A DNA stretch of 64,000 nt. It comes from Sphagnum magellanicum (taxonomy: Eukaryota; Streptophyta; Sphagnopsida; Sphagnales; Sphagnaceae). The first letter of the stretch is position 1; each line of letters starts with the position of its first letter. Location: positions 4,944,041-5,008,040 of the forward strand of contig CM038917.1 in NCBI GenBank assembly GCA_021904315.1, written 5' to 3'. The notes beneath the pieces are model-generated. The model made no database searches and was not told where the DNA came from. It worked only from the letters and a program-made list of their open reading frames with translations. The position numbers and the translations under genes are program-made. Positions 4,184 through 63,835 of the stretch are shown here, piece after piece.

Positions 4184-10459
<6,276 letters not shown>

Positions 10460-12647: not shown

Positions 12648-14141
12648 TCATTCATTGAGTTGCTGCTCGTCAGATTCTAGAAATGCAAGGTTGGAGCACA
12701 TGGTGTCACACCACGCATCGAATGCCTCTGAAAGATTTGGCCAGTTTTGGGTTGGCCAGCTTTTGAGATACTGCACTTGCTCAAGAGGAGGAAGGGTCTT
12801 GAGTACTCCATTCAAGGCTTTATCAACATTCTTCTTGGTGGCTTCATAAATACAGAAATCGATTGTTACCAGCTCTGGTAGCCATGCTTCAACCAGAGCG
12901 AGGCGCACAGAATTTTCCAACCAGATTTCTCCTTTGGCCACTATGTCCAGATAGCGAACAAGCACATTGCAGGTGTCTTGGACAAAGTTGAGACCAGAGT
13001 ATGCATATTCTGTGCTTACAAGAGGCCAGATACCAAACAGCATTTGAGAGAAGGATCTGTCAACAAAGATTGTCCGAGCTGCTAACTCAGCAATTCCAAA
13101 ATCAACAAGGGAGTTCAATAGCCAGAACAAACCTTTGCCTGCAATAGAGAATTCCTCATCTTTGTACATATGTGGGATCCTGCAATGTTGCCTGAAATCA
13201 TCAACAGCTCGCTGTAGAGCATCATACATGACAGCTTTCACAACAGTTGCAACCGACTTCGACACTACAAGTCCCCTCATTGACACCTTCAGTAACCTCT
13301 CAAAAGCAGCTCTGTTCTCCAGCACCTTGGTCTCAAGCATCTGATCCTGTGGATTCAACTGCATGCTCTTCATCAGTAGAGTCTCCAGTACTTTTTTCAG
13401 TGCATCCAGAGAGCTGTCTCTTGCAAGGTTCCCAAAAGTCCCAAGCCGGGCAGCCAAGTCAGGTGAAGGAGCGATCTGGAATGCCAAGACGGCACATCGG
13501 ATAGCAGACAGATCCTCTGGGCTCCAGGGCATCAATGCCAGGTACCGCATGCAGTTATCCACACAGTCCTGGAAAACAAGCTGTGCTGCTACAGGCATGA
13601 CTTCTATAGCATGTGCCACATTCTCAAAGGAGGAAGGAGAGACTTCCTGGGCGTAGAGCAGCTGCATACAGCGTGTATAAGCCCGCGGATTGCTGCGAGC
13701 TTCCAAGGTCAGGTCAAGGGGGAGGTCATTCTTTGACCATCGCTCCGCCAAGCATGCATCGAAGTATTGACATCGCCGCAGATATGCAGCGTGGACATGC
13801 AGGGTAGCGACAGCATCTACCTGTTCTGGCATCTTCTTCGATGACTGCCCTTGCTCCTGGGATTCGCCTCTTCGACAAAGGTCTGAGGGACCTTGTTTTC
13901 TGAATTTTTTGCAGGGATGAGGTCCTTTTTCGGAGTCTTCCTGTCTCTGGAACTGCTGGTGCTCCGAGTTGCCTCCTGCCTGCTGCAATGGTACCAATCG
14001 CAGCGTCACGTCGCTAATTTCGTCTTCCTTGAGCCATACTTCCGTCGGCATTCCTGAGCCATCTGCTTCCAAGCGCAAGGGAGGTGCCAAACGCAGCGTG
14101 ATGCTGCTCTCATCATCCTTCGGCCACACCTCCATCAGCAT
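12648..14141 (-). CDS. BTB/POZ-domain protein, plant At3g05675/At1g63850-like family
   Basis: This is a 497-residue single coding exon. Plant BTB proteins of this type are candidate substrate adaptors for CUL3 ubiquitin ligases; the substrate is unknown. The BTB fold is seen as SDVTLRL at residues 43-49 and, after a 60-residue polar insert rich in Q, E, K and S, LHVHAAYLRRCQYFDACLAERW at about 114-135. Then come LLYAQEVSPSSFENV and the helical PVAAQLVFQDCVDNCMRYLALMPW, typical of the family, and a long helical C-terminal part. The first ATG of the frame is at 14141. The frame stays open 45 codons further upstream, but only from a GTG and through a T-rich stretch ending in CTTAG/CACACAG, which looks like an intron end. 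MEVWPKDDESSITLRL at 3-18 is followed by TEVWLKEDEISDVTLRL at 33-49, an internal duplication of the first strand. No lesion is seen. Confidence 0.85.
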   Translation of the reverse strand: MLMEVWPKDDESSITLRLAPPLRLEADGSGMPTEVWLKEDEISDVTLRLVPLQQAGGNSEHQQFQRQEDSEKGPHPCKKFRKQGPSDLCRRGESQEQGQSSKKMPEQVDAVATLHVHAAYLRRCQYFDACLAERWSKNDLPLDLTLEARSNPRAYTRCMQLLYAQEVSPSSFENVAHAIEVMPVAAQLVFQDCVDNCMRYLALMPWSPEDLSAIRCAVLAFQIAPSPDLAARLGTFGNLARDSSLDALKKVLETLLMKSMQLNPQDQMLETKVLENRAAFERLLKVSMRGLVVSKSVATVVKAVMYDALQRAVDDFRQHCRIPHMYKDEEFSIAGKGLFWLLNSLVDFGIAELAARTIFVDRSFSQMLFGIWPLVSTEYAYSGLNFVQDTCNVLVRYLDIVAKGEIWLENSVRLALVEAWLPELVTIDFCIYEATKKNVDKALNGVLKTLPPLEQVQYLKSWPTQNWPNLSEAFDAWCDTMCSNLAFLESDEQQLNE

Positions 14142-15240
14142 TGCTGCACGTCTGTCAGGGTTGAAAGGAAGCTCAAGACTGTGTGTACCTAAGAGCTTAA
14201 GGACACCACAAAAATTGCAAAAACAGAAACCAATACTACTGAAACGCCAACAGCGGCAGCTGCAGCAGCATCCCACAACACGACGTCCATTACCATTCCC
14301 ACCACAAGCTTCTCGATAGGGAACCGGACGGCTTGCAAAGCTCTAGGCACAGAGACAAAATTGACGCAACGAAGTCTTACAACGGCATGTCACACATAAA
14401 GAAACCTCATTCACCAGAGGTCAACTGCAAGGGAGAACAGAGAGGAAAACCTTACTACTTCCACTAGGTGATCGGACGCAAGACGAGAAACAAAACAATA
14501 GCAACGGGATGCGAAAGAGTTTAGGCTTACGACCACAGTCACAGTCCCATCCCCGTATCTACTCTTCTTCACCTTCACTGCAAAACACCGCTTCCTGAGA
14601 GCACCGCACCAATTGCAACGGAAGAAATCATCAATGGAGTTTGTTTGAAGCAATCACGGACATCGGTGACAGACATCCGTCATCAGTCAACCACTCTCCG
14701 CTAAAAAGAAAGATCTCCGAGTACAACAACATCACGAGGGAAGAAGAACTAATAACTCTGTTATTGAACCATGAAGTGGGCCAAAGAAACAACAGCCGGA
14801 AAAAAAAAAAAAAAAAAAAGCACACGCACACATACACAGAGCAGTGGAACAACAGATGAGAAAGGACTGGGTCCACACAGCATACACAAGCTACAAAATC
14901 TAGGACTAATTCTTCACCCAAAGAGAAGCTGTAAAAATCGGTTAAGAACATAAAAATAGCACAAACGATTCTTGAGTATTCCGAGCTCCACGAGAGCTTG
15001 ATTGCAGAGGAAACAAAAGGCAGAAGCAACAACAAAAAACACCAACCCCAATCCCCCTTTCGCAACAACTCTCCCTCTCTCTCAACTGTGCACGGCAGGG
15101 AGCCTTCTTCGCCCTCTTTCCTTCGCACCTGCCCTCGGAGAACGAAGGAAAGAGAGAGACGACGACGATCCCCGACAGATCATCCAAAAATCCTCGTTTT
15201 CCAAATTTCATTCACAGGGGCTCTTTCATTACGTTACTAA
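14142..15240 (-). promoter_or_regulatory. Leader and promoter region of the BTB gene
   Basis: On the minus strand this stretch contains donor-like GTAAGG (about 14451) and GTAAGCC (about 14527) and acceptor-like TTAG or CACACAG just upstream of the start, so a spliced 5' leader is likely. A run of about 19 A at 14800-14818 reads as poly-T on the gene strand. The GA/CT-rich segment 15060-15180 resembles a plant transcription start region. No second gene is supported. Confidence 0.4.
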
Positions 15241-22179: not shown

Positions 22180-23654
22180 TCTTCTAATACTCCATGTAGG
22201 AATTTAGTTTTAACATTCAATCGATGGACTTTGTAATCAAGTTAAAATAATAATAACATGAATAGAAGAAAGTTTTACAACCAATGAAAAGATGTCACCA
22301 TAATCTACACCCTTGACTTGTGTGAAACCTTTTACTAAATGAACTTTATATCTCTAATGCTTCCTTCAAATTTTAACTTGGTTTGAAAATTCACTTATAA
22401 TTCATCATTTATTTATTGTTTGATAGTGTTGTTAATGTATGGAAATTTTATTCGTCTATATTGAATGCAATGTAAATTCAATAGCCATTTTCCAATGAGT
22501 TACATCAAGTTTAAATAAAACTTTTTCATATGTGATTGGCTCCAACTTATAATCTTGTACTATTAGTGCCTTGGTTTGGATTTTCTTGAGGTAGATGGCT
22601 TCTTTCCCACATTCTATGTGATCAATCTATTTGGTTTAATAATCTTTCTCAATGGTCTTGATGGATATTGCATGTTTATTCTATATTAGGTGATATGTGA
22701 TTATTGATATAAAACTTTTCAATTTCTCCCATTGAATTCAAACTCAAGTGTGGTATAGTTAAGTTGTAGTCTATATTTTTGGTTGTATTTGTTGTGTAAT
22801 AATATGTTTACTACCAAGTTAGGAGGGGATTAAACTAGTAAAGGGATTATTTAAAGAATGTATTAAACAACAATTCATTTAAATTTGTTTCATTTTGTTC
22901 AATTGAATGTTCATATTCTATAGTAGTTCATTTTTTCAAAGACCACATCTCTAGAGATAATAATGGTTTTGTTTAACAATTTTAATAAATATTTATAGGC
23001 TCGTTTTCTTCATAATAGCCAAAAAGTGTATATTCAATTGTATGATGCATTAATTTCTTCCTTACTAAATCTTTTTGCACAAGAAAAAAATACATCTAAA
23101 CATTTTCGAATGAATTTAACTTTGGTTTTACACTAATCCATGAATCAACATGAATCTTTGTGTCATCAAGTGCCTTTGTAGGAATCGTATTCTAAAAATA
23201 GTTTCTTGTCAACAAAGCCTTGTCCCCATAGGATTTAGAAAGACCAAAATTGTGCAACATACAAGTTACAACATCCATTAGAATCATGTATTTACTCTCT
23301 ACAACCCCATTATTAAACAAGAGCTAATCATCATAACCAAGGCCAATTTTTGAAATATTAACAAAGGTCAACTTTTGAAAGGATCCCAATTAATATGTAC
23401 ACTTATATACACCTAGATTATACAAATGATTATAAAAATGTTTTTTTTCATTTAATAAACATCTAATTTTTCATCTATACAAAACACACAAGTTGCCAAG
23501 TTGTATGACAACATATTGTAAACAATTTTGAAACTTTGAGTCTATGGACCTAATGGAATACCTTTCCACATTTACAAAAAGGATAAACGAATGATATGGA
23601 CAAACGTTACATTAAGTATACATGTTGAGTGTAATCATATAATAAATATACAAA

Positions 23655-26600
23655 TCACATCCATTTGAAAGTGGAGCTAAATCTTTTCGATAATATGTTG
23701 AATATGGGAATATATTGCATGCCTTTCTTTTTGTTCAATCCTTCAAAAAGTTGTAGAACTTCTTGGATTCCCGGTCTTTGATTTGGATCTTCCTATAAGA
23801 AACAAATGTCATAAAAGTTAGATGTTTATTATGTAATAGTTAAACATTATAATCAAACCATGGCAAAATGTTCAAATAAATGGACTACGTGTTCATATCT
23901 AAATTTGCAATGACACAATGTGAACATATATCCTTCAAAAAAGAATGTTTAAACCAACTTATATTTTTATTCAACAACATAATTTTATTGACTTTGAAAA
24001 TAATATATTCCTTTGAACTATACATATCAATCATGCAAATGGTCTAAAAGAATTCCAAGTGAGATTGAATGTACCATTTTCATGTGTAAACCTTATCAGG
24101 AAGTCTTACATTCAGTGGACAATCTAGTTTAATGTATTTCAAATTGTTTCAAGTACTACATCGAATCCATGATTTGGGTTTTTCAAATTTGTTTGACAAC
24201 AAATTGAATGATACACATAAAAGATTTGGCACAAAAATTACCTTGATGCACTGAAGGGAAATTTGCAAAAACAATTTGGCTTCATTGCGGTCAAACCCAA
24301 TGATTGAATTATTGATCACAACATTGAAAATTTGTTGGAATCCATTTTCTTCCACACGAACCTTTTGTGCCCATTGGATAAATTTGTAAAGGTAAACTTC
24401 ATTTCCATCTAAAATGAATGGTGATCCATTCAAAAGTTGAATCAACAACACTCCGAAGCTATACACATCACTCTTTGTTGATGCTTGCTTTTTTTCACGA
24501 ATTTCTGGTGCCATATATCCGAGTGTTCCTGGTGTAGAAGTTGAAGCTAACTACATCTGAATTTGAATTTTCCAAACAAATCAATAATTTCAATAGATGT
24601 CACATGCATTGAATGTACATGTTGAAGTTCATAAAACCCACACCCAAAATCCCATCTAATACCAATAGGAACCCATAATTTTTTTTGAATCTTTTTCAAT
24701 CACAAAAGTTCCAAGCCTTGTGTCATTACTCATGCACACATAAAAATAAATTTTGTATATAAAATGTAATTTCTTGAATTATTATATTAAATTTTTTTCA
24801 AATATTCATTTTAGATTGTGAATGTTTATCATATTTGTTCCATGACCTATAATAATGCAAATATGAAATTAGCAAGTTGTGCCCAAAAAGACTGTTCAAA
24901 TTTGCAAGGTTCACAATCGCAGTAAGATATAGTGTGCATGCACATAACCAATTAAAAAAAATGGTGGGGCACATACCACATCTTCATCCTTGCCATCTAA
25001 AATTTTTGCCAACCCAAAATCAGCTAATTTTGGGGTGTAATCTTGATCCAAAAGGATATTTTGTGGTTTGATATCAAGATGGACAATGATCGGATTACAT
25101 TTATGCAAATGTGCCAATCCTTGAGCAACCCCTATAATGATGCACATTCGTCGGTCCCAACCCAAAAGGTTGTCTTCATGGAGCCATTTGTCAAGAGATG
25201 AATTTGAAATGTATTCATATACCAACATATGTTTTGGGCCTTCGATACAATAGCCCAAAAGACGAACCAAATTGAAATGTTGAATTGATCCCAAAGTGCG
25301 CACTTCAGATATGAAAGATTTTTTTGCACCTTCATTGTGGGAGCCGTTCCATTTTAAAACTTTAATGGCAATCTTGGTGTCTTTCCAACAACTTTGATAA
25401 ACCTCACCAAAGGCTCCTTCCCCCAAACTTGTTCCAAAATTCAATTCATTGTATGTAAAAGATTGAATATTTGAATTGAATGGCAACAATTTTATTGTGG
25501 GTTGGTATTCATTTACCATCCATTTCAACATTTTTTGAATTTGTAATATCAAATGATCATTTGGTTGAAGATGATGAAATTTATCCATGATTTCCAAGGT
25601 TCCTTGATAGTCATCCAACCTGTATTTCACATCTGCATGACTCATCAAGGCGAATGGATCGTTTGGTTCAAGAACATCAACCTTGTCAAGGTCTTCCAAT
25701 GCTCCTTGATACTCTTTCAGCATCCTTTTGATATCTCCACGAATCCTCAAGGTGAATGCATTGTTTGGTTCAAGAACATCAGCCTTGTCAAGGTCCTCCA
25801 AGGCTCTTTTATAATCATCCAACATGTATTTGACATGTCCACGAATGCTCAAGGTGGATGCATTGTTTGGTCCAAGAACATCAGCCTTGTCAAGGTCCTC
25901 CAAGGCTCCTTGATACTCTTCCAACATGTATTTGACATTTCCACGAGTCCCCAAGGTGAATGCATGGTTTGGTTCAAGAACATCAGCCTTGTCAAGGTCC
26001 TCCAAGGCTCCTTGATAATCTTTCAACATCCTTTTGATATCTCCACGAGTCCTCAAGGTGAATGCATTGTTTGGTTCAAGAACATCAGCCTTGTCAAGGT
26101 CCTCCAAGGCTCCTTGATACTCTTTCAACATGTATTTGACATTTCCACGAGTCCCCAAAGTGAATGCATGGTTTGGTTCAAGAACATCAGCCTTGTCAAG
26201 GTCCTCCAAGGCTCCTTGATACTCTTTCAGCATCCTTTTGACATCTCCACGAGTCCTCAAGGTGAATGCATCGTTTGGTCCAAGAACATCAGCTTTGTCA
26301 AGGTCTTCCAAGGCTCCTTGATACTCTTTCAACATCTTTTTGACATTTCCACGAGTCCCCAAGGTGAATGCATGGTTTGGTTCAAGAACATCAGCCTTGT
26401 CAAGGTCCTCCAAGGCTCCTTGATACTCTTTCAGCATCCTTTTGACATCTCCACGAATCCGCAAGGTGAATGCATTGTTTGGTTCAAAAATATCAGCCTT
26501 GTCAAGGTCCTCCAAGGCTCCTTGATACTCTTTCAACATGTATTTGACATTTCCACGAGTCCCCAAGGTGAATGCATGGTTTGGTTCAAGAACATCAGCC

Positions 26601-28681
26601 TTGTCAAAGTCGTCCAAGGCTCCTTGATAGTCTTTCAGCATCCTTTTGACATCTCCACGAGTCCTCAAGGTGAATGCATTGTTTGGTTGAATAACATCAG
26701 CCTCGTCAAAGTCCTCCAAGGCTCTTTGATACTCTTTCAACATTTTTTTGACATCTCCATGAATCCTCAAGGTGAATGCATTGTTTGGTTCAAGAACATC
26801 AGCCTTGTCAAGGTCCTCCAAGGCTCCTTGATACTCTTTCAACATCTTTTTGACATCTCCACGAGTCTTCAAGGTGAATGCATGGTTTGGTTCAAGAACA
26901 TCAGCCTTGTCAAGGTCTTCCAAGGCTCCTTGATAGTCTTTTAGCATCCTTTTGACATCTCCACAAGTCATCAAGGTGAATACATTGTTTGGTCCAAGAA
27001 CATCAGCCTTGTCAAAGTCCTCCAAGGCTCCTTGATACTCTTTCAACATCTTTTTGACATCTCCACGAATCATCAAGGTGAATACATTGTTTGGTTCAAG
27101 AACATCAGCCTTGTCAAGGTCCTCCAAGGCTCCTTGATACTCTTTCAACATGTATTTGACATTTCCACGAGTCCCCAAGGTGAATGCATGGTTTGGTTCA
27201 AGAACATCAGCCTTGTCAAGGTCGTCCAAGGCTCCTTGATAGTCTTTTAGCATCCTTTTGACATCTCCACGAGTCCTGAAGGTGAATGCATTGTTTGGTT
27301 CAAGAACATTAGCCTTGTCAAGGTCTTCCAAGGCTCCTTGATATTCTTTCAACATGTATTTGACATTTCCACGAGTCCTCAAGGTGAATGCATTGTTTGG
27401 TCCAAGAACATCAGCCTTGTCAAGGTCGTCCAAGGCTCTTTGATAGTCTTTCAACATCCTTTTGATATCTCCACGAGTCCTGAAGGTGAATGCATTGTTT
27501 GGTTCAAAAACATCAGCCTTGTCAAGGTCCTCCAAGGCTCCTTGATACTCTTCCAACATGTATTTGACATTTCCACGAGTCCCCAAGGTGAATGCATGGT
27601 TTGGTTCAAGAACATCAGCCTTGTCAAGGTCGTCCAAGGCTCCTTGATAGTCTTTCAGCATCTTTTTGACATCTCCACGAGTCCTCAAGGTGAATGCATT
27701 GTTTGGTTGAATAACATCAGCCTTGTCAAGGTCCTCCAAGGCTCCTTGATACTCTTTCAACATCTTTTTGACATCTCCACGAGTCTTCAAGGTGAATGCA
27801 TGGTTTGGTTCAAAAACATCAGCCTTGTCAAGGTCCTCCAAGGCTCCTTGATATTCTTTCAACATCTTTTTGACATGTCCACGAATCCTCAAGGTGAATG
27901 GATTGTTTGGTTCAAGAACATCAGCCTTGTCAAGGTCTTCCAAGGCTCCTTGATATTCTTTCAACATGTATTTGACATTTCCACGAGTCCTCAAGGTGAA
28001 TGCATGGTTTGGTTCAAGAACATCAGCCTTGTCAAAGTCCTCCAAGGTTCCTTGATAGTCTTTCAACATGTATTTGACATCTCCACGAGTCTTCAAGGTG
28101 AATGCATTGTTTGGTTCAAGAACATGAGCCTTGTCAAGGTCCTCCAAGGCTCCTTGATACTCTTTCAACATGTATTTGACATTTCCACGAGTCTTCAAGG
28201 TGAATGCATTGTTTGGTTCAAGAACATCAGCCTTGTCAAGGTCGTTCAAGGCTCCTTGATAGTCTTTCAACATCTTTTTGACATCTCCACGAGTCCTCAA
28301 GGTGAATGCATTGTTTGGTTCAAGAGCATCAGCCTTGTCAAGGTCCTCCAAGGCTCTTTGATAGTCTTTCAACATTCTTTTGATATCTCCACGAGTCTTC
28401 AAGGTGAATGCATTGTTTGGTTCAAGAACATCAACCTTGTCAAGGTCCTCCAAGGCTCCTTGATAGTCTTTCAACATCTTTTTGACATCTCCACGAGTCT
28501 TGAAGGTGAATGCATTGTTTGGTTCAAGAACATCAGCCTTGTCAAGGTCGTTCAAGGCTCCTTGATAGTCTTTCAGCATCCCTTTGACATCTCTACAAGT
28601 CCTGAAGGTGAATGCATTATTTGGTTCAAGAACATCAGGCTTGTCAAGGTCCTTCACAGCTCCTTCATAATCTTCTAACAT
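23655..28681 (-). CDS. TPR-array protein kinase (31 TPR-like repeats plus non-RD RLK/Pelle-type kinase)
   Basis: Three exons join in frame on the minus strand: 28681-24977, 24550-24242, 23792-23655, giving 1383 residues. Residues 1-1054 are 31 consecutive 34-residue units of the type MLKEYQGALEDLDKADVLEP followed by NNAFTLRTRGDVKK, matching the TPR length and pattern; the last unit is diverged. The kinase follows from about 1075: glycine loop GEGAFGEVY, Lys1107 in AIK, HLDIKPQN at 1201-1208 (Leu instead of Arg, so non-RD), DFG at 1221-1223, PGTLGYMAPE at 1242-1251, DVYSFGVLL, and EDPNQRPGIQEVLQLFEG at about 1339-1356. All catalytic residues are present. No signal peptide or membrane segment is visible, so a cytoplasmic kinase is likely. 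TPRs bind proteins; the partner is unknown. A TGA sits just upstream of the chosen ATG, and the first unit begins mid-repeat, so an upstream exon is possible. Donors are GTATGT and GTAATT. Confidence 0.85.
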
Positions 28682-29350
28682 CCTTCATACATCGATCTAG
28701 TTAGTTCTCATGTTGATCTTTCATTTCAATGTGATTTGAATGACAAACTTGATCATCGCCAAAAATATTGGTGCACAATTCCATCACGTGCATAATTACA
28801 TGCATATGCACAAACCTTGTCCAAAATTATTGTTGTTTTAATCCATTTGTTGAATGGAATTCTTTCTTTGGCAAACATTATTATTGTAGTACTCTATATA
28901 TGCAAAGTTCATGACTTTTAATTGTTGCAAAACTACTTGAAATAGCTAGATGATGTGAGTCCCAATTTTGTTCAAATTAAACTCTCTAGTATAACCCCAT
29001 GTGAAACTTAGGAATATCATGTTCATGTTTTAATTAGTCACTACTTGAGCTTTGAAACAGATTCCATTCATCACAACCTTCACACCTTTGAATAAAAACA
29101 CACGCTTAATTTTATTGTTGCAAAACAAATTCAGTTCAAAATGATAAATGTTTGTGTGTGAAGCACATACCTACAAGTTTTGGGAAATTGCAAAAGATGT
29201 GACATTTGAATGACCTTGATAGTTTTTGTTGTCCTTTTGTGTTGGTTGCTAGCCCAATGAAATGCATGCGATCACTGTGGCAATCAAGAAAAGCACCAAG
29301 TTAACCCACGTTAGTAGAAAATAAGAGTAGATTAGCCTTTGTGCAAATTT
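28682..29350 (-). promoter_or_regulatory. 5' flank of the TPR-kinase with a possible leader intron
   Basis: On the minus strand, TTGTAG followed by GTATGTGCTT near 29172 is a good donor. A short ATG-led frame precedes it but cannot be joined in frame to the ATG at 28681 using an obvious acceptor. I therefore read it as a candidate non-coding leader exon plus intron. The rest is AT-rich, with no other feature. Confidence 0.25.
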
Positions 29351-29465
29351 GAATCATTATACAATCGTTACTCTAGGTTGAATATTCATGACACTACTAA
29401 TGCTTTCAAAGACATAGAACCTAAGTTTTGGTGTTTGAGACATACTAGGTTTCACATAAAAAGAC

Positions 29466-29747
29466 ATGATAATATGTGAGATGAATTTCATGTGGCAATT
29501 GGATGATGAATACTCTTGTTGTTGCATTGAGCCACGAAACCCTATACATGTATGCGAGGAGATGGACGGCAGTAGAAGCTCTACAACAAGCGCAATAGAA
29601 AGCTCTGCAACAAGCCCAACAGGGGAACTGACCTTGATAAAAATTTGTAGCAAGCTCTTGGATGCAAATCTGAGCCAAGGTAGAATTAGTCCATTGGATT
29701 CCTTGCATTTATGCCAGAATGATGAACAACTTGTAAGGTGGTCATGA
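29466..29747 (+). other. Unrecognised open frame, about 93 codons (both strands open)
   Basis: On the + strand the frame includes a hydrophilic stretch EEMDGSRSSTTSAIESSATS and then LTLIKICSKLLDANLSQGRI, which looks protein-like. The minus strand is open through the same bases for up to 189 codons (29357-29926). I recognise neither. It is a somewhat more GC-rich island than its surroundings and may be an exon fragment captured by a transposon or a pseudogene piece. Confidence 0.2.
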
Positions 29748-29984
29748 TTAAAGGTTGAGAGTAAGGATCCAAGAGGTACTTCTAGGATGGTGCATAGCAT
29801 GTGCCATAATTGTCGCGGGTTAAAGTTTTCCGTGCACCCGCTCAGAACTTTACCAGGGAAAATTTTATTGCAGCTGGATGCTTTGCCGACTTTTCTCTTG
29901 TCATGTTGTGCTTTCACACCGCTCAAGATTGGAAGTCTTTAAGAAAGTAATGCAATCCCCGCGTGAATACGGCGGCCACAGTAA

Positions 29985-30345
29985 ACCAGCACCCACCGGT
30001 GCACCATCCACTGGATGCCGGTTATGACTCAGTTGTGGATGATCGTCAACTGAGTTACTACCTGGTCTCATCTTGGTAACCCATTCAATAAGAAGTAGGT
30101 TTAACCTTTAGTCAGGTAGGTTAAAAAATAGCGGACTACTATGTAAGTAGATAGACGATACATAGTAGGTAGGGGCTGTTTTTACTACCTACCTGGTTGG
30201 CAGGTAGTTAATAAAGCAAGTTAGCTAACCACCATGGTTAGCTAGGGAACTGGAACCCAACAGAAAACTGTTTCCTCATCACATATCATCCATTCTTGAT
30301 GGTACACTGGTGGCTGCAGGTTAACAGTGGCCACGTTCTACACCT
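29985..30345 (+). repeat. Dispersed repeat B, copy 1
   Basis: Order of words: CACCCACCGGTGCACCATC, GGTTGTGGATGA-like words, CAACTGAGTTACTA, TTGGTAACC, ACTACCTACCTGG, GTTAGCTAACCACCATGGTT, CATATCATCCATTC and GATGGTACACTGGTGG. All recur in reverse orientation at 46868-47275. The GTAGGT/ACCTAC words make it locally palindromic. No coding potential; type unknown. Confidence 0.7.
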
Positions 30346-32045
30346 GCAACTTCCTGTGGTCGCTGATTTTTTGGGCTTTCACATAATGGAGACAAGTGGT
30401 CATTGATGGATTGCGCCGACCATGTGTCAGCAAAGAAAGGTGAGGCAAGTTAGCAGTCTTTAGTCAGAACCAGGGTTTTTTTTTTCAAATTCCTCAGGTA
30501 GGTGCACTGGCGAGGATCCCCAGCTTTAATTCGCATTAAATGGCGACTGCACTAGGCGGACATTAGAGTTTTTTCTGAATCCTGCATAATTCTTGGTGAG
30601 CTACACGAACTCACTGTCTAAATCTGGCGATATTTTTGAAAATTTTCAAGAAAAATCCTTTGTAGAGGTCGCCCTGGGCTTTTTTTTTTGGTCAGTCAGT
30701 TGGCGAAATTTCGCCCAACAGAAAACACTGGTCAGAACTCTCCTCTTATATAGATTATTATATCAACTCTTTGCTTTGTGTAACTTTTTCTCCTTTCATT
30801 ACCTGCTGGGAAACATTGTTCATAATTTCATTTCCCATAATGTCATGGCACATGCCCCATGTTGGTGGTAGGCCCCAAACTTGAGCATGTGTAAGGTTTT
30901 AGACTCGAAAAATTTCCTATTAGAGCTGAACTTTTCAGCCTTTACAGAATGGATGTATTTGGTCATTGTTCGATAATTCACAGCCTGTGTCAGGAGATAT
31001 AATGAGGGTTGTTAGAGCTGGAACTAGTGATTTGTTGGTGGCTGAAATTCGCCATTTTTGCTGTTAAAAAAAAAGTCCCAAGCAACATGATCCAGTGAAC
31101 ATTTTGGAGAAGTTCTTAAAAAATCCTCACATATAGAGGAAGAAGAGAGATATGAAATCACCAAGATTTTCTGGGAGGATTTGGGCAGATTTCTAGCCTG
31201 TTTCTTTTGAAATCTCCATATTTATAGTTAATAGGTTCTAGTGGTTCGCCAACATGTAATAAGATTCCTAGAACTTTATTTGTCTTGTAGCCAGATCTGA
31301 CTAAATCCTCTTGTGGCTGATGGCCACTTTTGATGCAACATGAGAAAATTGAAAAAAGAAACACTGGCTGGAAGCTCTGAATTGTGTGTCAGCAAAGAAA
31401 ACTTATTGGCCATTTGAAGTCTTCCCCAAAGTTGGGCATACATTAGAGAAATCCCTAAATTCACCAGGATTTTCATAGGGTGTCTCACACCCTATTAAAA
31501 TTTTCGCCCTGAGTTGCAGTCGTCCGTAAGGTCACCCTGACTAACCGTGGGCGGTTTTCGAAAAAGAGTGGGTGAGAAGGGGTTGACCACGTGGTGTGTT
31601 TGACTGGCTTAAAATAGGTGGACAGTCCAAGAAGTTGCCAATTTCAACACTTGGATTGGCGAGGGGGGAGGGGAGGTTGTTGCGAGAAGTTTTTTTTTTT
31701 GGGATTTTGAGGGGATTTGGGTGGGGTTTTTCATTTCCTGAAGGATGGGCGGGCTAGGGGTTTAGGGGATGATGATTTTTCTTTTTCTTTTGGGGGGAGG
31801 GTTTGTTTTTCTTTCAGAGTGGGTGGGTTCAAGTCTTTAAATATTTATTTTTGGTTGTTGGAGGTCTAGGGGACACCTCAATTTATTTGAAGTTTTTTAT
31901 TTTTTTATAATTAGGTGTGGGTTCATGTTCTAGGGTTTAGAGTTTAGGGTTTATGGGGTTAGGGGAGCTTTTCATTTGATTCCTTTGATGCTAAATAAGT
32001 GGGAGGGATCCCAATTTTGCCTTTTTATTTTCAATCTCATTTCAC
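30346..32045. other. Intergenic DNA with repeat A-like fragment and telomere-like words
   Basis: No gene is supported. A repeat A-like fragment (GCTGATGGCCACTTTTGATGC) sits at about 31290-31372. G-rich, T-rich sequence follows from 31660, with a few TTTAGGG-like words around 31930-31970. The open frames are short and unrecognised. Confidence 0.4.
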
Positions 32046-32161
32046 TTGAAAGTTTTAAGTCTTCCATTTCATTTGGGAGTGTCAAGTGATTTGAAATTTT
32101 TTTTGGGTTTAGGGAATCCGATTTCATTTTTCTTTTTTAGGGTTCATTTCACTTGCCATCT

Positions 32162-32374
32162 ATGGAGTTTATTTTATCACATCTTGAATCGAGCTCCTCC
32201 AATAGTGACGAGGAGTTGCTTGAGGAAATGGTGATAAATGATCAAATTGCAATGCAAGCGATAATTGCTTGTGTCAATATTTGGGAATATTTCACATCAA
32301 TAGAGCTGGATGAAGAAAGTGAAAATTTGGTCAACCTTGATGTAAGTGTGTGGGACATCTTAACAACCATGTGA
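32162..32374 (+). other. Short acidic open frame, 70 codons, unknown
   Basis: It starts MEFILSHLESSSSNSDEELL and continues acidic. A Ser-rich, acidic start like this occurs at the N-termini of some transposase-associated proteins (PIF/Harbinger type), but nothing diagnostic follows. It could equally be chance. No splice partner was identified. Confidence 0.15.
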
Positions 32375-32929
32375 ACCACACTAAGTTTGTTTAAGTTTCT
32401 CACCAACTTCATTTTGGGAAAATTTGAAAATTTGACTCAACTTGTGGTCCTAACCAATGTTGGGTGATTCTCACATGCGACTTGAAAATCTGCAAGATTT
32501 TGAAGTTGAAAACTGTGGGTTCTTAGATAAGAGGAAAACCAAATTAATAACCTAACTGGTTCACAACCTAGTGATAACCACCCCTAAAATGTTTAAGGTT
32601 TTCAAAAATCAAAAAAGTTGAAAATCAAAAAAGGTATCTCCCAATACCTTTTGGACCAGTTTCAACTTTAAGGTTATAGCTTATAGGTTTAGGTTTAAGG
32701 TTTAAAGCTAGCCATTTTAAGTGTGTTGTTTAGGTTTAGGGTTAATAATTAAAAATTAGGGTTAGGTTCAAAAATTAAGGTTTAGTCATTGCCTGAAACG
32801 ACGCCTTAAACTATATAAATTAAATGTTAGTGAATGAGAGCTTCTTTGATTTTGCTTTGTGCGTTATATGTTATTTGTTAATTGCTTTGGATTTCTCTTA
32901 TGTTTTGTTTCTAGATCTTTTAACTTTTT

Positions 32930-34260
32930 GTTCAACTCTTTTTTTGTGTTTTTTTGGGTTTGTTTTTGCTTTTAGATCTTGCTTGTGGCCCTTGCTTTTG
33001 TTCCAACTCTCATTTTGTAGGTATAGGTTTTTATTCTTGGCTTTAGTTTTTGATTCTTTCCTAACTTTCGCTTCTTACTTCTATTTTTCGTTTCTCATTT
33101 ACGGTTTTTACTTGGCTTTCATTTCTTGTTTTTGTCTCTCATATTTTTTCTTTTGGCTCTTGTCAAGTTTTCATTTCTCACTTCTATCTTTCACTTTTCA
33201 CTTATGGGTGAAAGCACACTATAGTGAACCAATGGCGATGGATGTGGTGTTCATAATTAGTCTTTTTCATAATGTCAAATTGGAATCACTACTTCAAAAT
33301 TGCAAACATTCCCCCCTAAAACAAAAAATTTGTGGATTTCAATAAAGGCCTCCCTTGAAAATCCTACATGCTATTTATATTTTGAAATGTAGCTAAAAAT
33401 TCATCAATGTGTGGATTTCAAAGACTAAATTTTCAGATATTCATTTTTTTATGAATTATTCCATTCAAAATCTACATTCATGATACCATTCCACCAAAAA
33501 AAAACATTTACTAGTATAGTTCATGATGCATTTTTGAGTCCATAACACAAATCATGGATTGTGACAACACAATTGCCTTGACTTAGAAAGTCCACTTTGA
33601 GTTCATAATATCATTATTTGTCATTCTATTTTTACAATGCTTTTAACTTGTACCCCACTACTAAAAAATGAGTCCCTACCAACATTTTATCATAATTTCA
33701 AAGTTATATAGGCCTATAACTTAACACCCCCCTTTAGTGAAAATTGTAGTGTGACACCAAAAAATGGATTATCTAGTGTGCTTTCACCCTTATTGCTCTT
33801 GCCTAACTCTCACTTTTCACTTATGTTTCTCACTTCTCACTTCTAGTTCTTGTTCAACTTTCATTTCTTGCTTCTAGTTCTATCTACTTTCACTTTTGTT
33901 TTTCATTTCTAGTTCTTGTTTGGCTCTCACTTTTTGCTTTTGTTTTTTGTTTCTATCTCTTGCTTCTCACTTTTATCTTTCACTTTTCACTTTTGTCTTT
34001 TACTTCTTGTTTATGGTTCATGGTTGGCTTTCGTTTCCTACTTCTATCTTTCACTTCTCACTTTTATCTTTTATTTCTTGTTTTTAGCTCTTGCTTGGCT
34101 TTTGCTTTTCACTTTTGTTTTTTGTTTTCCCTTTTGGTTTTGCCTAGCTTTTATTTCTCATTTTTGTCTTTTATTTTTCCTTTCTATCTTTCATTTCTTG
34201 CTTTTGATTTTTTTGCTAACCTTAATTATTTCTAGCTCTTATTTTAAGTCTTGGTTCTAC
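32930..34260 (+). repeat. Pyrimidine-rich degenerate tandem array, split by a TIR element
   Basis: Words such as TTTCACTTCTTGTTTTTAGC, CACTTTTATCTTTCACTTCT and GCTCTTGCTTGGCTTT recur at irregular spacing of roughly 20-35 bp on both sides of the TIR element at 33206-33789. The array is almost free of purine runs on this strand. The Phe/Leu/Ser-rich open frames through it (up to 173 codons) are composition artefacts, not proteins. Confidence 0.7.
33206..33789. mobile_element. 584-bp TIR element, same family as 20172-20969, TSD TTAT
   Basis: Left end GGGTGAAAGCACACTATAG; right end reverse-complemented GGGTGAAAGCACACTAGAT. TTAT flanks it at 33202-33205 and 33790-33793. The pyrimidine-rich array continues directly on both sides, which confirms an insertion. 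No coding capacity. Confidence 0.85.
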
Positions 34261-42909: not shown

Positions 42910-45356
42910 CTATTTTTGTACCCTAGGATGAATTTTCATTGGCAATCCATTCTTCATTTGCATGGTCATGTCAATTGCATACATTGGATTGAAAATTTCA
43001 ACATAAAATGTGAAGTGGATTAGTAGCCTTGTTGCTACCAACTTCATTTTAAGCATTGCAAAATCTTTCCCCAAGCATACATGAGTCCCTGTTTGAAACA
43101 CAAAAAAATTATATGGGTTTTCGAGAACAAAAACTCCATCTTTCAACCACCTTTCAGGTTTGAATTCAAGGAAATCAACCCCCCATAGTTGTTCCATTCT
43201 TCGCATTGCATATGGAAGATAACCAACATATGACATCTTAGGGATTGGAATTCCATCTAGCAACACATCATCCTTTACAACCATTTTAACATCAAATGGA
43301 ACCGAGGGATAAAGCCTAAGAGATTTTGACACTACTTCATGCAAGTAATGCATTTCCTTTAGCTCCTCATAAGTGATTAAAGTGCTAGGATCATCTTTTT
43401 CATCCTTGTTGTCAAACTGGACCTTAGATTTTAATGTGTTTGTGATTTCAACAAGCATTGTGTCTTCAATGTGAAGGTTGCATGATAACAACGAAAAGAA
43501 CCATGATAAACCTATAGGACAAATGAAAGCAAATGTCGAGGACCAATTGATAAGTCTTTCAAGCAAAATTTTAAAGAGACAAAATGAGGAGAAAATTGAT
43601 GTTGTGAACAACTTGCATAGGTGGTATCCCTTCCTACTAGGATGAAACTTATCACAATGTCTTGTAAAAAACCATTAAAAAAGCCTTATTGCTTCTTATT
43701 CTTATCCACATCTTCAAAATTTCTTTTCGTTTGTTGCATGGGGAGGCCCATGAATCTTGACAAAAGATCCATATGTTGATCTTCCAAACTTTTTGAATTG
43801 ATCCTTTAATAATCAATTTCCATTAATTGTGTCCTCTTTGTGTGGATCACAAACATGGAAAAATCATCAATATCACATAAAACTTGACACATTTTCCTTT
43901 CATTGCCAACATGAAGAGCACGTTGCAACCTCAATATAAATGGAAAGTTAAAAGCCTGAGTTGATGAAATTGATGTTGCCATGTCAAATGCTTGAGCAAA
44001 TTTCACATTTGGAAGTGAAAAATCTAGGCATGCAACATCAATTCCGAACCCCAGTTTGCAAATATTATCAAATGCAGAATGTCGCAACCCCACTTTGGCC
44101 AAGTGTGGGGGTGAAGCCCAACACTTGGAAAAGTTTGGAGGTGTGGAGTCCTCTGGGACTCCCGAATGTTTAGAGCTCGACAGTAAGGGGCAAAACACCT
44201 CGCATTGGGGTGTTGTTGGTGTCATTGAAAAGGTCTTGAAACGTAGATATCGAAAATGCCCTCGCATTGGCAATTCGGACATCTGCAGCCCAAGTTATGG
44301 GCAAAAGAAGGGCCGGGAGTCAAATTGGCAATTTGACTCCTGACCACTAAAAGTCGGGAATCGACCTCTTCCCGACGTCCGATTTGAGTGTGCGACATGG
44401 CGTTGGAAAGATCTCGACGAGGGCTACAACTTCGATTTAGACCTTGTCGCGATCCAACTCTGCAGTCGGGAGTTATGGTGGTTCAAAGTTTCAGGAGTCC
44501 CGCCGGGACAATTTCGGGACTCCATTTCGGGAGTCCTGGGAATTTGTGCCATTCGGATGTAGCCTCCGCGACCAGCCGCAGAGAATACTATATGGGGGAA
44601 GGTGGTGGCTTCCCCCAAGTCCAGGCCGTGGTGAGTCTTGTGTGTCCAAGTGCCCGTGGCAAGTCCCAACACCCAAGGGTGTCCCGAATGCTAAACTAAC
44701 CCGATTTGGTTGGTTTTTGGATGCAGATTCACACGAGCTAAGTTAGTCCCTCTTCCTAGTCTAATCCCGGGGCTCCCAACTCGACCCTCTACCCCTTTCT
44801 AGAGTTGGAAGCCGGGAGCGTGCTACCAAGTTCAACTTTCCGCAACTTGACTTTGTGAAACCCTCAAATGGGTTTCACCCCGTGACTTGGGAGCGCGTCA
44901 CAGAATGCATGAAAAGTTTTGGAGATCAATTGAAACTTTTACTTTGCAAGTTTTTGCAAGCAACGGGATAAGTCAATCATTCAACTCTACTTGAATTATA
45001 GCACGCATGAAGTTTTGAAATGATTTTGAAGTAAATTCACAACTTACAATGCCTCATTGTAATTTCCAATGCTTTCCATCTATATTGAAAATCCCTTTCC
45101 CAAGAATTTCACCAAAAATGTGTTTTATGAAATGGCCTTTTTGGTAATTATCAGAATTGGTCTTCAAGATGTACTCCACATTCATAGGATTTGTTATGAT
45201 GTACACACATAAGCCACTAAGAAAAATATTTTGGATCATCATGGTGGGTTGGTTTTTGATGTGATATGTCATAAAATCCAACACACTATTTTGATGCCAT
45301 AACAATTGTATAATATTGCTTATAAATGTACACTTTGAGCCCTTTGTTCTTTCCAC
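42910..45356 (-). pseudogene. CYP704-like cytochrome P450 pseudogene
   Basis: In minus-strand order: NVEYILKTNSDNY and GKGIFNIDGKHWKLQ followed by a stop (45356-45054); EFTSKSFQNF; then an 821-bp LTR insertion. FDNICKLGFGID, FAQAFDMATS and DLLSRFMGLP follow, with a stop between the last two. The I-helix VGRDTT is followed by an apparent intron of about 100 bp (GTTGTT to CTATAG) and LSWFFSLL. Then comes the K-helix with KSLR where ExxR is required, then FKPERW and the heme loop FQTGTHVCLGKDFA with the Cys kept but the usual Arg replaced by His, ending at a stop at 42910. CYP704 and related CYP86-clan enzymes hydroxylate fatty acids for cutin or sporopollenin. At least three stops, the lost Glu and the LTR show it is not functional. 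Family placement within the clan is by motif resemblance only. Confidence 0.82.
44080..44900. mobile_element. Solo LTR, 821 bp, TSD CAGAA
   Basis: It begins TGTCGCAACCCC and ends GGGAGCGCGTCA, so it has TG...CA termini with imperfect inverted ends. CAGAA flanks it at 44075-44079 and 44901-44905. It splits the P450 reading between LQNFSCIL and FDNICKLGF. It is clearly more GC-rich than its surroundings and has no pol sequence next to it, as expected for a solo LTR left by recombination. Short open frames inside it are meaningless. Confidence 0.85.
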
Positions 45357-62144: not shown

Positions 62145-63835
62145 TTATAACACCTCTGTGTAAACAACATTTCGAGTATACACACCGGCAGGTGCATCTT
62201 CATGAGCATTCTCCCACCCATCTGTAACTAGCATTTTCACGCCCTCGGGGCACCCAATGCGCGACATGGCCACATACAACTGGCCATGTGTAAATACAGG
62301 TTTGGGCAGGAAAATGCCGACCATTTTTAATGTCTGCCCTTGCGCCTTATTGATGGTCATGGCAAATGCAGGGCGCACAGGAAACTGGCGTCGCCGCAGA
62401 GTGAAAGGCATTCGTTATGTGTCTGAAGGTGTGATGCTTAGTCGTGGAATGAACACTCGTTGGCCCTTTACAGGACCAGTTGCCACCTCTGCTTCAATGA
62501 CATGCTGCATGAGTTGAATGACAATGAGCCTAGTACCATTAGCCAGGCCGTTGGTCATGTTGCGTAATAATATGATGGGACAACCCTCCTGCAAGTGCAG
62601 TTCATGGGGTGGTACGCCCGGAAAATTGAGTGTGTTCAAGAACTCAGTGGGGTAAATGCCATGTTGATCCCCATGCATCACAGAATCCGCGCTGTAATAC
62701 ACGCGGTGCTGTGCGGGCGAGCCATCGTGCTTTGTGAATGCATATGTGTCATTGATGAGTTTATTGAGTGCATCCACATTTTCGTTCAAAGGTGTAAGAA
62801 TTGCACGCTCAATGATGTATGCAGATCTTGCAGCATACTCAACAATAGATGATAGAGCGCCATACACTTCTTTAATCAAATCTGCCACAATAGGGCCATT
62901 GCAACACATGTCATGAGGAATAAGAATGGAGTCTTCACCAACAGAGGGATACACGCGCTCTACGCCCTCCCCCACACGTTGCAAGTAATCAGCAAATGCC
63001 TGCAGCCGTGTGGCATCTACTTGTGCATACGCGTCACCCTGAGCCAACAACCTCTGCATGCGCATGTTGGTGTATAGCTTGAATACACGCACATGTTGCC
63101 AAATGCTGGAACGGTTCAAAGCTGCTTTGACAACATCTCCCCTGGTGCCGCGGGGCACAACAGGTAAAATTTGCCGAAAATCGCCACCAAACACCACAAC
63201 CAAGCCGCCAAAGGGCAGGAACTTGAATGTTGGGTTAATGACAGCCATGATGTCCTGCAAAGACCTGTTGACAGCCTCAAAAACATGCATGTGCATCATG
63301 ACAGCCTCATCCCACATAATGAGCGCAGCTGCTTGCAAAAGTGCTGCCAGGTCAGAGTCCCTATTGATGTAGCATGTGGACGTGCTATTGAGGTCTTGCA
63401 CAGGGATCTTGAAATGTGAGTGTGCAGTGCGGCCTCCGTCCAGCAGCAATGCAGCAATGCTAGACGATGCCACAACAATAGCGACCCGACCTTGTGCGCG
63501 CACGGTGCTTAGCAACTATAGAGAAAGGTTTTGCCAGTGCCGCCAAGGCCATCGACAAAAAATGCACGGCAGTCGACAGCGACCATGACATTGTCATAGA
63601 CAGCTCGTTGCTCAGGGTTAAGTTGCGGCACGCGCTCATTTCGTATGGCTGTTTGCGTTGCCACATCATACCTGGCAATTTTGTCTGCCACCACAGCACT
63701 GGTAAGTTGGGCCGCAGGTGTCGGCAAGCCAAATGTTGCCAAGTCATGGCTGCTGTTGAGGTGTGCCAAGTGTAGCGCCAACTCCCGCAGCACCATGTCC
63801 CGGATGGCAGCATCGAATTGCCGTGCTCGCTCGTC
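62145..63835 (-). pseudogene. Helitron PIF1-type DNA helicase, two lesions
   Basis: This is the helicase half of the Rep-Hel protein that unwinds DNA during rolling-circle transposition. Motifs in order: QLNPEQRAVYDNVM, Walker A GLGGTGKTF (about 63540), VVASSSIAALLLDGGRTAHS, Walker B region LIMWDEAVMM (DEA), GGDFRQILPVVPRGTR, ILTPLNENVDALN, GDQHGIYPTEFLNTL, GCPIILLRN, AMTINKAQGQTL, and YVAMSR near the end. A one-base loss near 63515, just after Walker A, shifts the frame. A TAA at 62415-62417 interrupts it between ITPSDT and RMPFTLRRRQF. Otherwise the protein reads through. The coding match begins after a GTGCAG acceptor-like site at 63836, so an intron may lie upstream. Confidence 0.85.

Follow-up and report, generated by a model that had tools for sequence, protein, structure and literature searches.

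A Sphagnum gene joining a long TPR array to a non-RD kinase belongs to a family that may have evolved in the manner of recognition receptors

The gene considered here lies in a 64,000-nucleotide stretch of the Sphagnum magellanicum genome (assembly GCA_021904315.1, contig CM038917.1; G000:C11:4944041-5008040), hereafter the window, and joins a long array of tetratricopeptide repeats (TPRs) to a protein kinase. Read from 28681 to 23655 on the minus strand, it has three exons, all in phase 0, and two introns with GT..AG boundaries, and it encodes 1383 residues with 0 internal stops, as an earlier sequence-only reading of the window had proposed. The intron-exon structure was read from the sequence alone. 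The assembly searched for relatives holds 438,994,042 bases in 31 contigs, and loci fetched from it carry L numbers. The gene and its flanks comprise the following (window positions):

28686..33431, minus strand: upstream sequence common to 17 of 20 paralogs (not L018, L024 or L028), at ~70-97%, mostly 79-92%
28681-24977, minus strand: exon 1, with the start, the whole TPR array, the kinase N-lobe and most of the catalytic core; read from sequence, donor GTATGT
25622..28681, minus strand: 30 full TPR units of 34 residues (102 bp) each; Pfam TPR_2/TPR_1 on units 1-8
25532..25621, minus strand: unit 31, a degenerate TPR that links the array to the kinase; TPR_9 match only, below its cut-off
24977..25435, minus strand: exon 1 share of the kinase, from the Pfam Pkinase start (PF00069 on the spliced protein)
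25073..25081, minus strand: HLD replacing HRD in a non-RD catalytic loop, from the sequence
24976-24551, minus strand: intron 1 (inferred), GT..AG, phase 0
24550-24242, minus strand: exon 2, C-lobe and end of the activation segment (GTLGYMAPE); matched by tblastn (E<1e-30) in 19 of the 20 paralogs, L024 being the exception
24241-23793, minus strand: intron 2 (inferred), GT..AG, phase 0
23792-23655, minus strand: exon 3, end of the C-lobe and stop codon, inside the Pkinase match
23308..23654, minus strand: 3' flank in common with paralogs, from which the window copy departs past 23308

The program TRF reports a single 102-bp array of 30.3 copies (90% matches, score 4857). The 30 full repeats share a mean identity of 90% as DNA and 79% as protein (minimum 56%), and 29 of the 30 are distinct; the initial description of 31 near-identical repeats thus holds for the DNA, as 30 full units plus a degenerate one, and is too strong for the protein. 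Pfam scans of the window protein covered repeats 1-8 and residues 953-1383. The eight repeats scored 85.9 bits with TPR_2 (5.3e-25) and 82.6 bits with TPR_1, and the repeat register follows TPR_2 at G8, A20, A27 and P32; A20, A27 and P32 are each present in at least 27 of the 30 repeats and G8 in 28. Repeats 9-28, read from the translation, are units like those scanned. With 34-residue repeats in the register of the profile, this is a TPR array. None of the 30 repeats contains a stop, versus 3.7-5.3 expected by chance (P=0.025-0.005), and a stop-free array is unlikely to have arisen by chance alone. PDB sequence matches were obtained both to designed consensus TPR arrays and to transcription activator-like (TAL) effectors, which also have 34-residue repeats; the latter match is most likely an effect of repeat period, and Pfam assigns TPR.

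The array and the start of the kinase do share exon 1, as had been claimed; the kinase is not complete there, however, as exons 2 and 3 supply the rest of the C-lobe. The spliced protein matches Pkinase PF00069 with 173 bits (8.7e-51). By its sequence the kinase is of the RLK/Pelle class (RLK, receptor-like kinase), and its nearest solved structures, by sequence matches to the PDB, are a lectin-RLK, BRI1, BAK1, PBL2, BIK1 and IRAK4. The catalytic lysine, the αC glutamate, the catalytic aspartate and DFG are retained, and the kinase looks functional. The non-RD loop first noted is present as HLD at 25081-25073. Among the 44 family kinases described below, HLD occurs in 38 and HRD in 0, with the lysine kept in 44, the αC glutamate in 39 and DFG in 40. 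HLD by itself is weak evidence because three RLK-like kinases from outside the family (L054-L056) also have it.

Translation presumably starts at 28681, and this start site is the least certain element of the gene model. Eight of 10 aligned paralogs (of 20) have preserved an in-frame start, reading MFNK(P/L)K(V/M)H, immediately 5' of the first regular repeat and preceded by decayed repeat remnants. The window copy is without ~700 bp that include this start, and its array meets the upstream flank at a breakpoint, 28686. The shared upstream sequence extends to 33431 in L012. Within it, 16 open reading frames (ORFs) of 45 or more codons were compared with the fetched loci by tblastn. The longest, of 193 codons, is full-length and open in 0 of the 17 loci with matches; shorter ones are still open (46 codons in 15 of 17 loci, 54 codons in 13 of 17 and 52 codons in 6 of 6). 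Because these short frames have been kept open in paralogs, a short upstream exon of the gene is possible. Substitution counts by codon phase gave no clear pattern by eye. At the other end, a transposon boundary at 23308 was considered and rejected: past this point the 17 compared paralogs stay alike (L023 less closely), and the window copy is the divergent one.

A membrane receptor kinase was also considered and rejected, on hydropathy. The 19-residue Kyte-Doolittle maximum of the window protein is 1.56, inside the kinase, and its first 60 windows are at or below -0.22; an RLK-like control from the same genome, L057, reaches 2.49. By hydropathy only, with no predictor run, the protein has no hydrophobic segment fit for a signal peptide or membrane helix, and it is probably cytosolic rather than membrane-bound.

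The gene is one of many. In a protein search of the genome (E<=1e-30), 150 of 1275 candidates were scored and at least 69 matches obtained: 44, the window gene among them, that are 62-100% identical across 149 residues or more; three partial fragments; and 22 at 43-53%. The genome thus has at least 44 family kinases, 11 of the 44 on C11, the contig of the window, and 22 of the 44 lie within open frames of 635-2178 residues. The 21 copies read with wide flanks (the window copy and L009-L028) each have, 5' of the kinase, 8-63 repeat units, as located with a DNA repeat profile on the kinase strand only; in L024 the array stops ~2.4 kb short of the kinase. Five more stretches, L029, L030, L033, L035 and L036, have the same array-kinase design, and the kinase splice donor GTATGT was found in all 20 paralogs fetched with wide flanks. 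The arrays of L010 and L011, otherwise in frame, contain 2 and 1 stops, respectively. By eye, some of these stops fall at the CAA (Gln) codon of the repeat, which would fit C-to-T decay in young copies. Repeats resemble one another more closely than the between-array mean (0.81) in 18 of 22 arrays, as expected under exchange of units.

Compared with 20 paralogs, the exon 1 kinase of the window copy has 3 private replacement and 5 private silent changes (ratio 0.15, p=0.010) and looks constrained. Fourteen other copies give 42 replacement to 24 silent (ratio 0.44, p=0.0015), whereas six placed in a pseudogene-like group (four whose exon 1 kinase has stops, plus L018 and L021 without) give 48:10, which fits neutrality (p=0.74). 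Across the repeats as a whole dN/dS, the ratio of replacement to silent rates, is near 1 (window, 1.0-1.4; all arrays, 0.88), and this value is an average of constrained and diversifying sites. For the arrays, parsimony counts of replacement and silent changes were made on a separate tree for each. A first repeat set kept 490 of 560 profile matches and dropped those with stops, those cut, and those with fewer than 17 of 34 consensus matches; a later set took 661 units with at least 15 of 34, of which 642 were left once identical units within an array had been removed. In the main test (26 arrays, 642 distinct units, Bonferroni correction), the replacement rate exceeds the silent rate at TPR positions 5, 6, 7, 9, 12 and 15, with ratios of 1.39-2.23. 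A single tree of 21 loci gives an excess at 5, 6, 9, 12 and 15 and constraint at 1, 4, 11, 14, 17, 18, 20-23, 26, 29 and 32-34. The same five excess positions emerge from nine arrays that lie within open frames of 600+ residues, and again, with 2 and 7 added, from the twelve other arrays; L026-L028 with L036 show 5, 9 and 12. The binding array proposed to be fast-changing is borne out in this form, as replacement changes concentrated at a few TPR positions.

In the passages of PMC1261162 that describe HOP, peptides are contacted by positions 2, 5, 6, 9, 12 and 13, a set that takes in four of the six excess positions (5, 6, 9 and 12; p=0.004, with the set picked after the sites had been seen). 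The same source lists 2, 5, 9, 12, 13, 33 and 34 as the most variable positions across TPRs. Taken together, positions 5, 6, 9 and 12 occur in 301 residue combinations in 661 repeats; of 2000 quartets drawn at random from the remaining 30 positions, none had more than 153.

One relative supplies a link to immune-type genes. L034 (L034:1-1901, G000:C12:19816600-19818500) encodes a TIR domain (PF01582, 1.3e-22), then, after an inferred intron, a TIR-NB-ARC linker and a family kinase at 64-68% identity. Its linker matches those of a TIR-NB-ARC gene ~70 kb away, L059, and of L060 in the same genome (compared by alignment rather than domain scan), and the likeness ends just before their P-loop. In a kinase tree L034 and L033 lie nearest to the outgroups, with local support of 0.79-0.82. 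As judged from its predicted domains and this placement, L034 is a TIR-kinase chimera and an early-branching relative. Read by eye, a possible TPR remnant precedes its kinase, where Pfam reports no TPR. The genome has 31 TIR matches: one is the L034 fusion; another, on C1, is 9 kb away from a stop-bearing family kinase; and a third, on C14, is 7 kb away from a fragment of a kinase. Within 10 kb, 0.066 such neighbors would be expected. The genes concerned are:

L061:486-1541 (minus strand), L061:8810-9373 (plus strand) and L062:7465-8070 (plus strand): TIR genes, divergent, 7-9 kb from the broken kinase (C1) or the kinase fragment (C14)

Two NB-ARC genes, G000:C11:4453290 and C11:4541985, stand ~19 kb from L020 and L021. 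L020 and L021 are duplicates of each other with upstream sequence 98.5% identical, which suggests that a segment with a nucleotide-binding leucine-rich repeat receptor (NLR) gene and a TPR-kinase may have been duplicated there.

The best supported of the readings that we considered, to which we give about an even chance, is that the window gene belongs to a family of cytosolic non-RD TPR-array kinases that has evolved in the way that recognition receptors, probably immune ones, evolve; the function itself is what we infer. Its immune part is based on the TIR link and the pattern of variation. For the recognition-type receptor-kinase first proposed, the membrane sense of the term finds no support; the TIR-kinase relative provides an immune link. 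Under this reading the array would be the sensing part, with a peptide or protein partner lying along a groove that helix-A residues at positions 5, 6, 9 and 12 line in one repeat after another. The bound partner might bring kinase domains together or release them, and the non-RD kinase would then relay the signal. Unequal exchange of 102-bp units would lengthen, shorten and reshuffle arrays, and selection would preserve the TPR frame while diversifying the groove. Groove geometry, ligand, activation and immune role are all things that we infer for these kinases.

Several observations weigh against the recognition reading. Two AlphaFold2 models have mean predicted local distance difference test (pLDDT) scores of 34 and 33 and merge helices A and B. 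Stops interrupt the kinase exon in 10 of the 44 family kinases, and only 7 of 21 arrays keep to the frame of the kinase throughout, the other 14 being shifted or interrupted in part. As to the site pattern, excess positions 7 and 15 lie outside the contact set, contact site 13 has no excess, positions 33 and 34, variable across TPRs generally, are constrained here, and the canonical TPR positions 8, 24 and 27 fall short of significance as constrained. Allowing for transition bias adds 2, 8, 10 and 28, which makes ten sites, 5 of them in the contact set. When the set 2/5/9/12/13/33/34 was used, in an initial test, the window was not significant (p=0.13) and all arrays together were weakly so (p=0.037). 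In the window array alone, 0 sites are significant after correction (5, 0.011; 12, 0.016; 6, 0.044), and in the diverged clade position 5 alone passes. Trees are an unreliable guide for repeats that undergo exchange, and the analysis dropped units that contained stops or had low similarity. Finally, the TIRs on C1 and C14 look like near-copies, so that they perhaps represent a single segment that was duplicated and whose kinases are broken.

TPRs serve widely as docking modules, and the family could instead consist of signaling scaffold kinases whose arrays bind endogenous partners such as chaperones, other kinases or clients, with the diversity reflecting different internal partners. Constraint on the kinase in the fourteen other copies is in keeping with this, as is the presence of TPRs in BSK kinases (PMC6429265, in part). 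We consider scaffolding unlikely, though a serious competitor: groove positions that differ from repeat to repeat and from copy to copy would be unusual for one fixed internal partner, and it leaves the many broken copies and the TIR chimera to be accommodated. Alternatively, the arrays could be a minisatellite by-product, in which slippage and unequal exchange of 102-bp units yield near-neutral differences and many copies, perhaps that of the window among them, are decaying pseudogenes. The repeat-wide dN/dS near 1, the stops in family kinase exons, the partly out-of-frame arrays and the loss from the window copy of the start region that paralogs keep all favor such decay. We nevertheless hold it to be quite improbable, as the dN/dS value averages constrained with diversifying sites, the 30 window repeats have no stop, and the window kinase shows a ratio of 0.15 (p=0.01) where pseudogene-like copies show 48:10.

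Reproduction, too, has given rise to variable multigene families for recognition, and the same variable groove could serve self recognition inside the cell (gamete, mating or tissue). The variation data fit this and an immune role alike; the only domain link found, however, is to TIR and TIR-NB-ARC genes, and self recognition seems very unlikely to us. That the plus strand is the coding strand is hardly credible: its frames through the array are open (25547-26944, 26945-27250 and 27251-28678), probably as a by-product of repeating one unit without antisense stops, but it is the minus frame, the only one covered by the domain scan, that matches TPR and leads into a constrained kinase.

The recognition reading gains perspective from known systems. 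Brassinosteroid signaling kinases (BSKs, RLCK-XII) are RLK-related, combine a kinase with TPRs and have no transmembrane domain, and the window protein resembles them in these respects. According to the portion of PMC6429265 that deals with their architecture, BSKs have the kinase first and then 2-3 TPRs, whereas here, as the sequence-only reading recognized, the order is reversed, with 8-63 repeat units before the kinase. The BSK model TPR_BSK1_C scores 25.9 bits on the window protein, below its cut-off of 42.2. Among the 22 listed matches outside the family, L031, an S-domain (G-type lectin) RLK, leads in identity (53%), though not in score. Its loop is HCD, non-RD like that of the window kinase, and it has S-locus and PAN ectodomain matches, whereas the scanned parts of the window protein have none. 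Moss PK-NBS-LRR (PNL) proteins are described, in part of PMC3352924, as kinase-bearing and of immune type, and, according to an excerpt of PMC11218826, the response of Nicotiana benthamiana to one Physcomitrium patens NLR kinase was modest and variable. The window protein is kinase-bearing like these but differs in that its kinase is C-terminal, and Pfam found no NB-ARC and no TIR in repeats 1-8 and residues 953-1383. It is likewise unlike the TIR-NB-ARC receptors L059 and L060, whose similar TIR and linker occur in its relative L034. NLR integrated domains are expanded in Sphagnum according to PMC11218826, a source consulted in part, whose main text never uses the term TPR. In the titles and abstract openings of the top-ranked open-access literature (the first 8-15 of up to 884 papers per search) there is no description of a moss or Sphagnum TPR-array kinase family, which is not proof of novelty.

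Elsewhere, the window contains further coding sequence:

6339-6752, plus strand: HRD protein kinase exon, of a type other than the TPR-array kinase (Pfam)
12648-14342, minus strand: single open frame of 564 codons with no Pfam match (ORF and Pfam scan)
42910-43674, minus strand: cytochrome P450 exon (Pfam)
62415-63515, minus strand: PIF1-like helicase ORF (Pfam 1.7e-55), perhaps a Helitron remnant

Overall, a stronger proposal can be framed, which we regard as tentative and on balance doubtful: that these kinases form an undescribed class of moss intracellular recognition receptor, with hypervariable positions 5, 6, 9 and 12 in each TPR, arrays of roughly 8-63 units reshuffled by unequal exchange into new groove specificities, and output through a non-RD kinase or, in one relative, through TIR plus kinase. 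If true, this class would be a kinase-based counterpart of NLRs and variable lymphocyte receptors. Intracellular recognition in plants is thought to rest mainly on NLRs, and TPR-array kinases would add a second design. The family would also supply hundreds of natural TPR variants from which to learn how residues set binding specificity.

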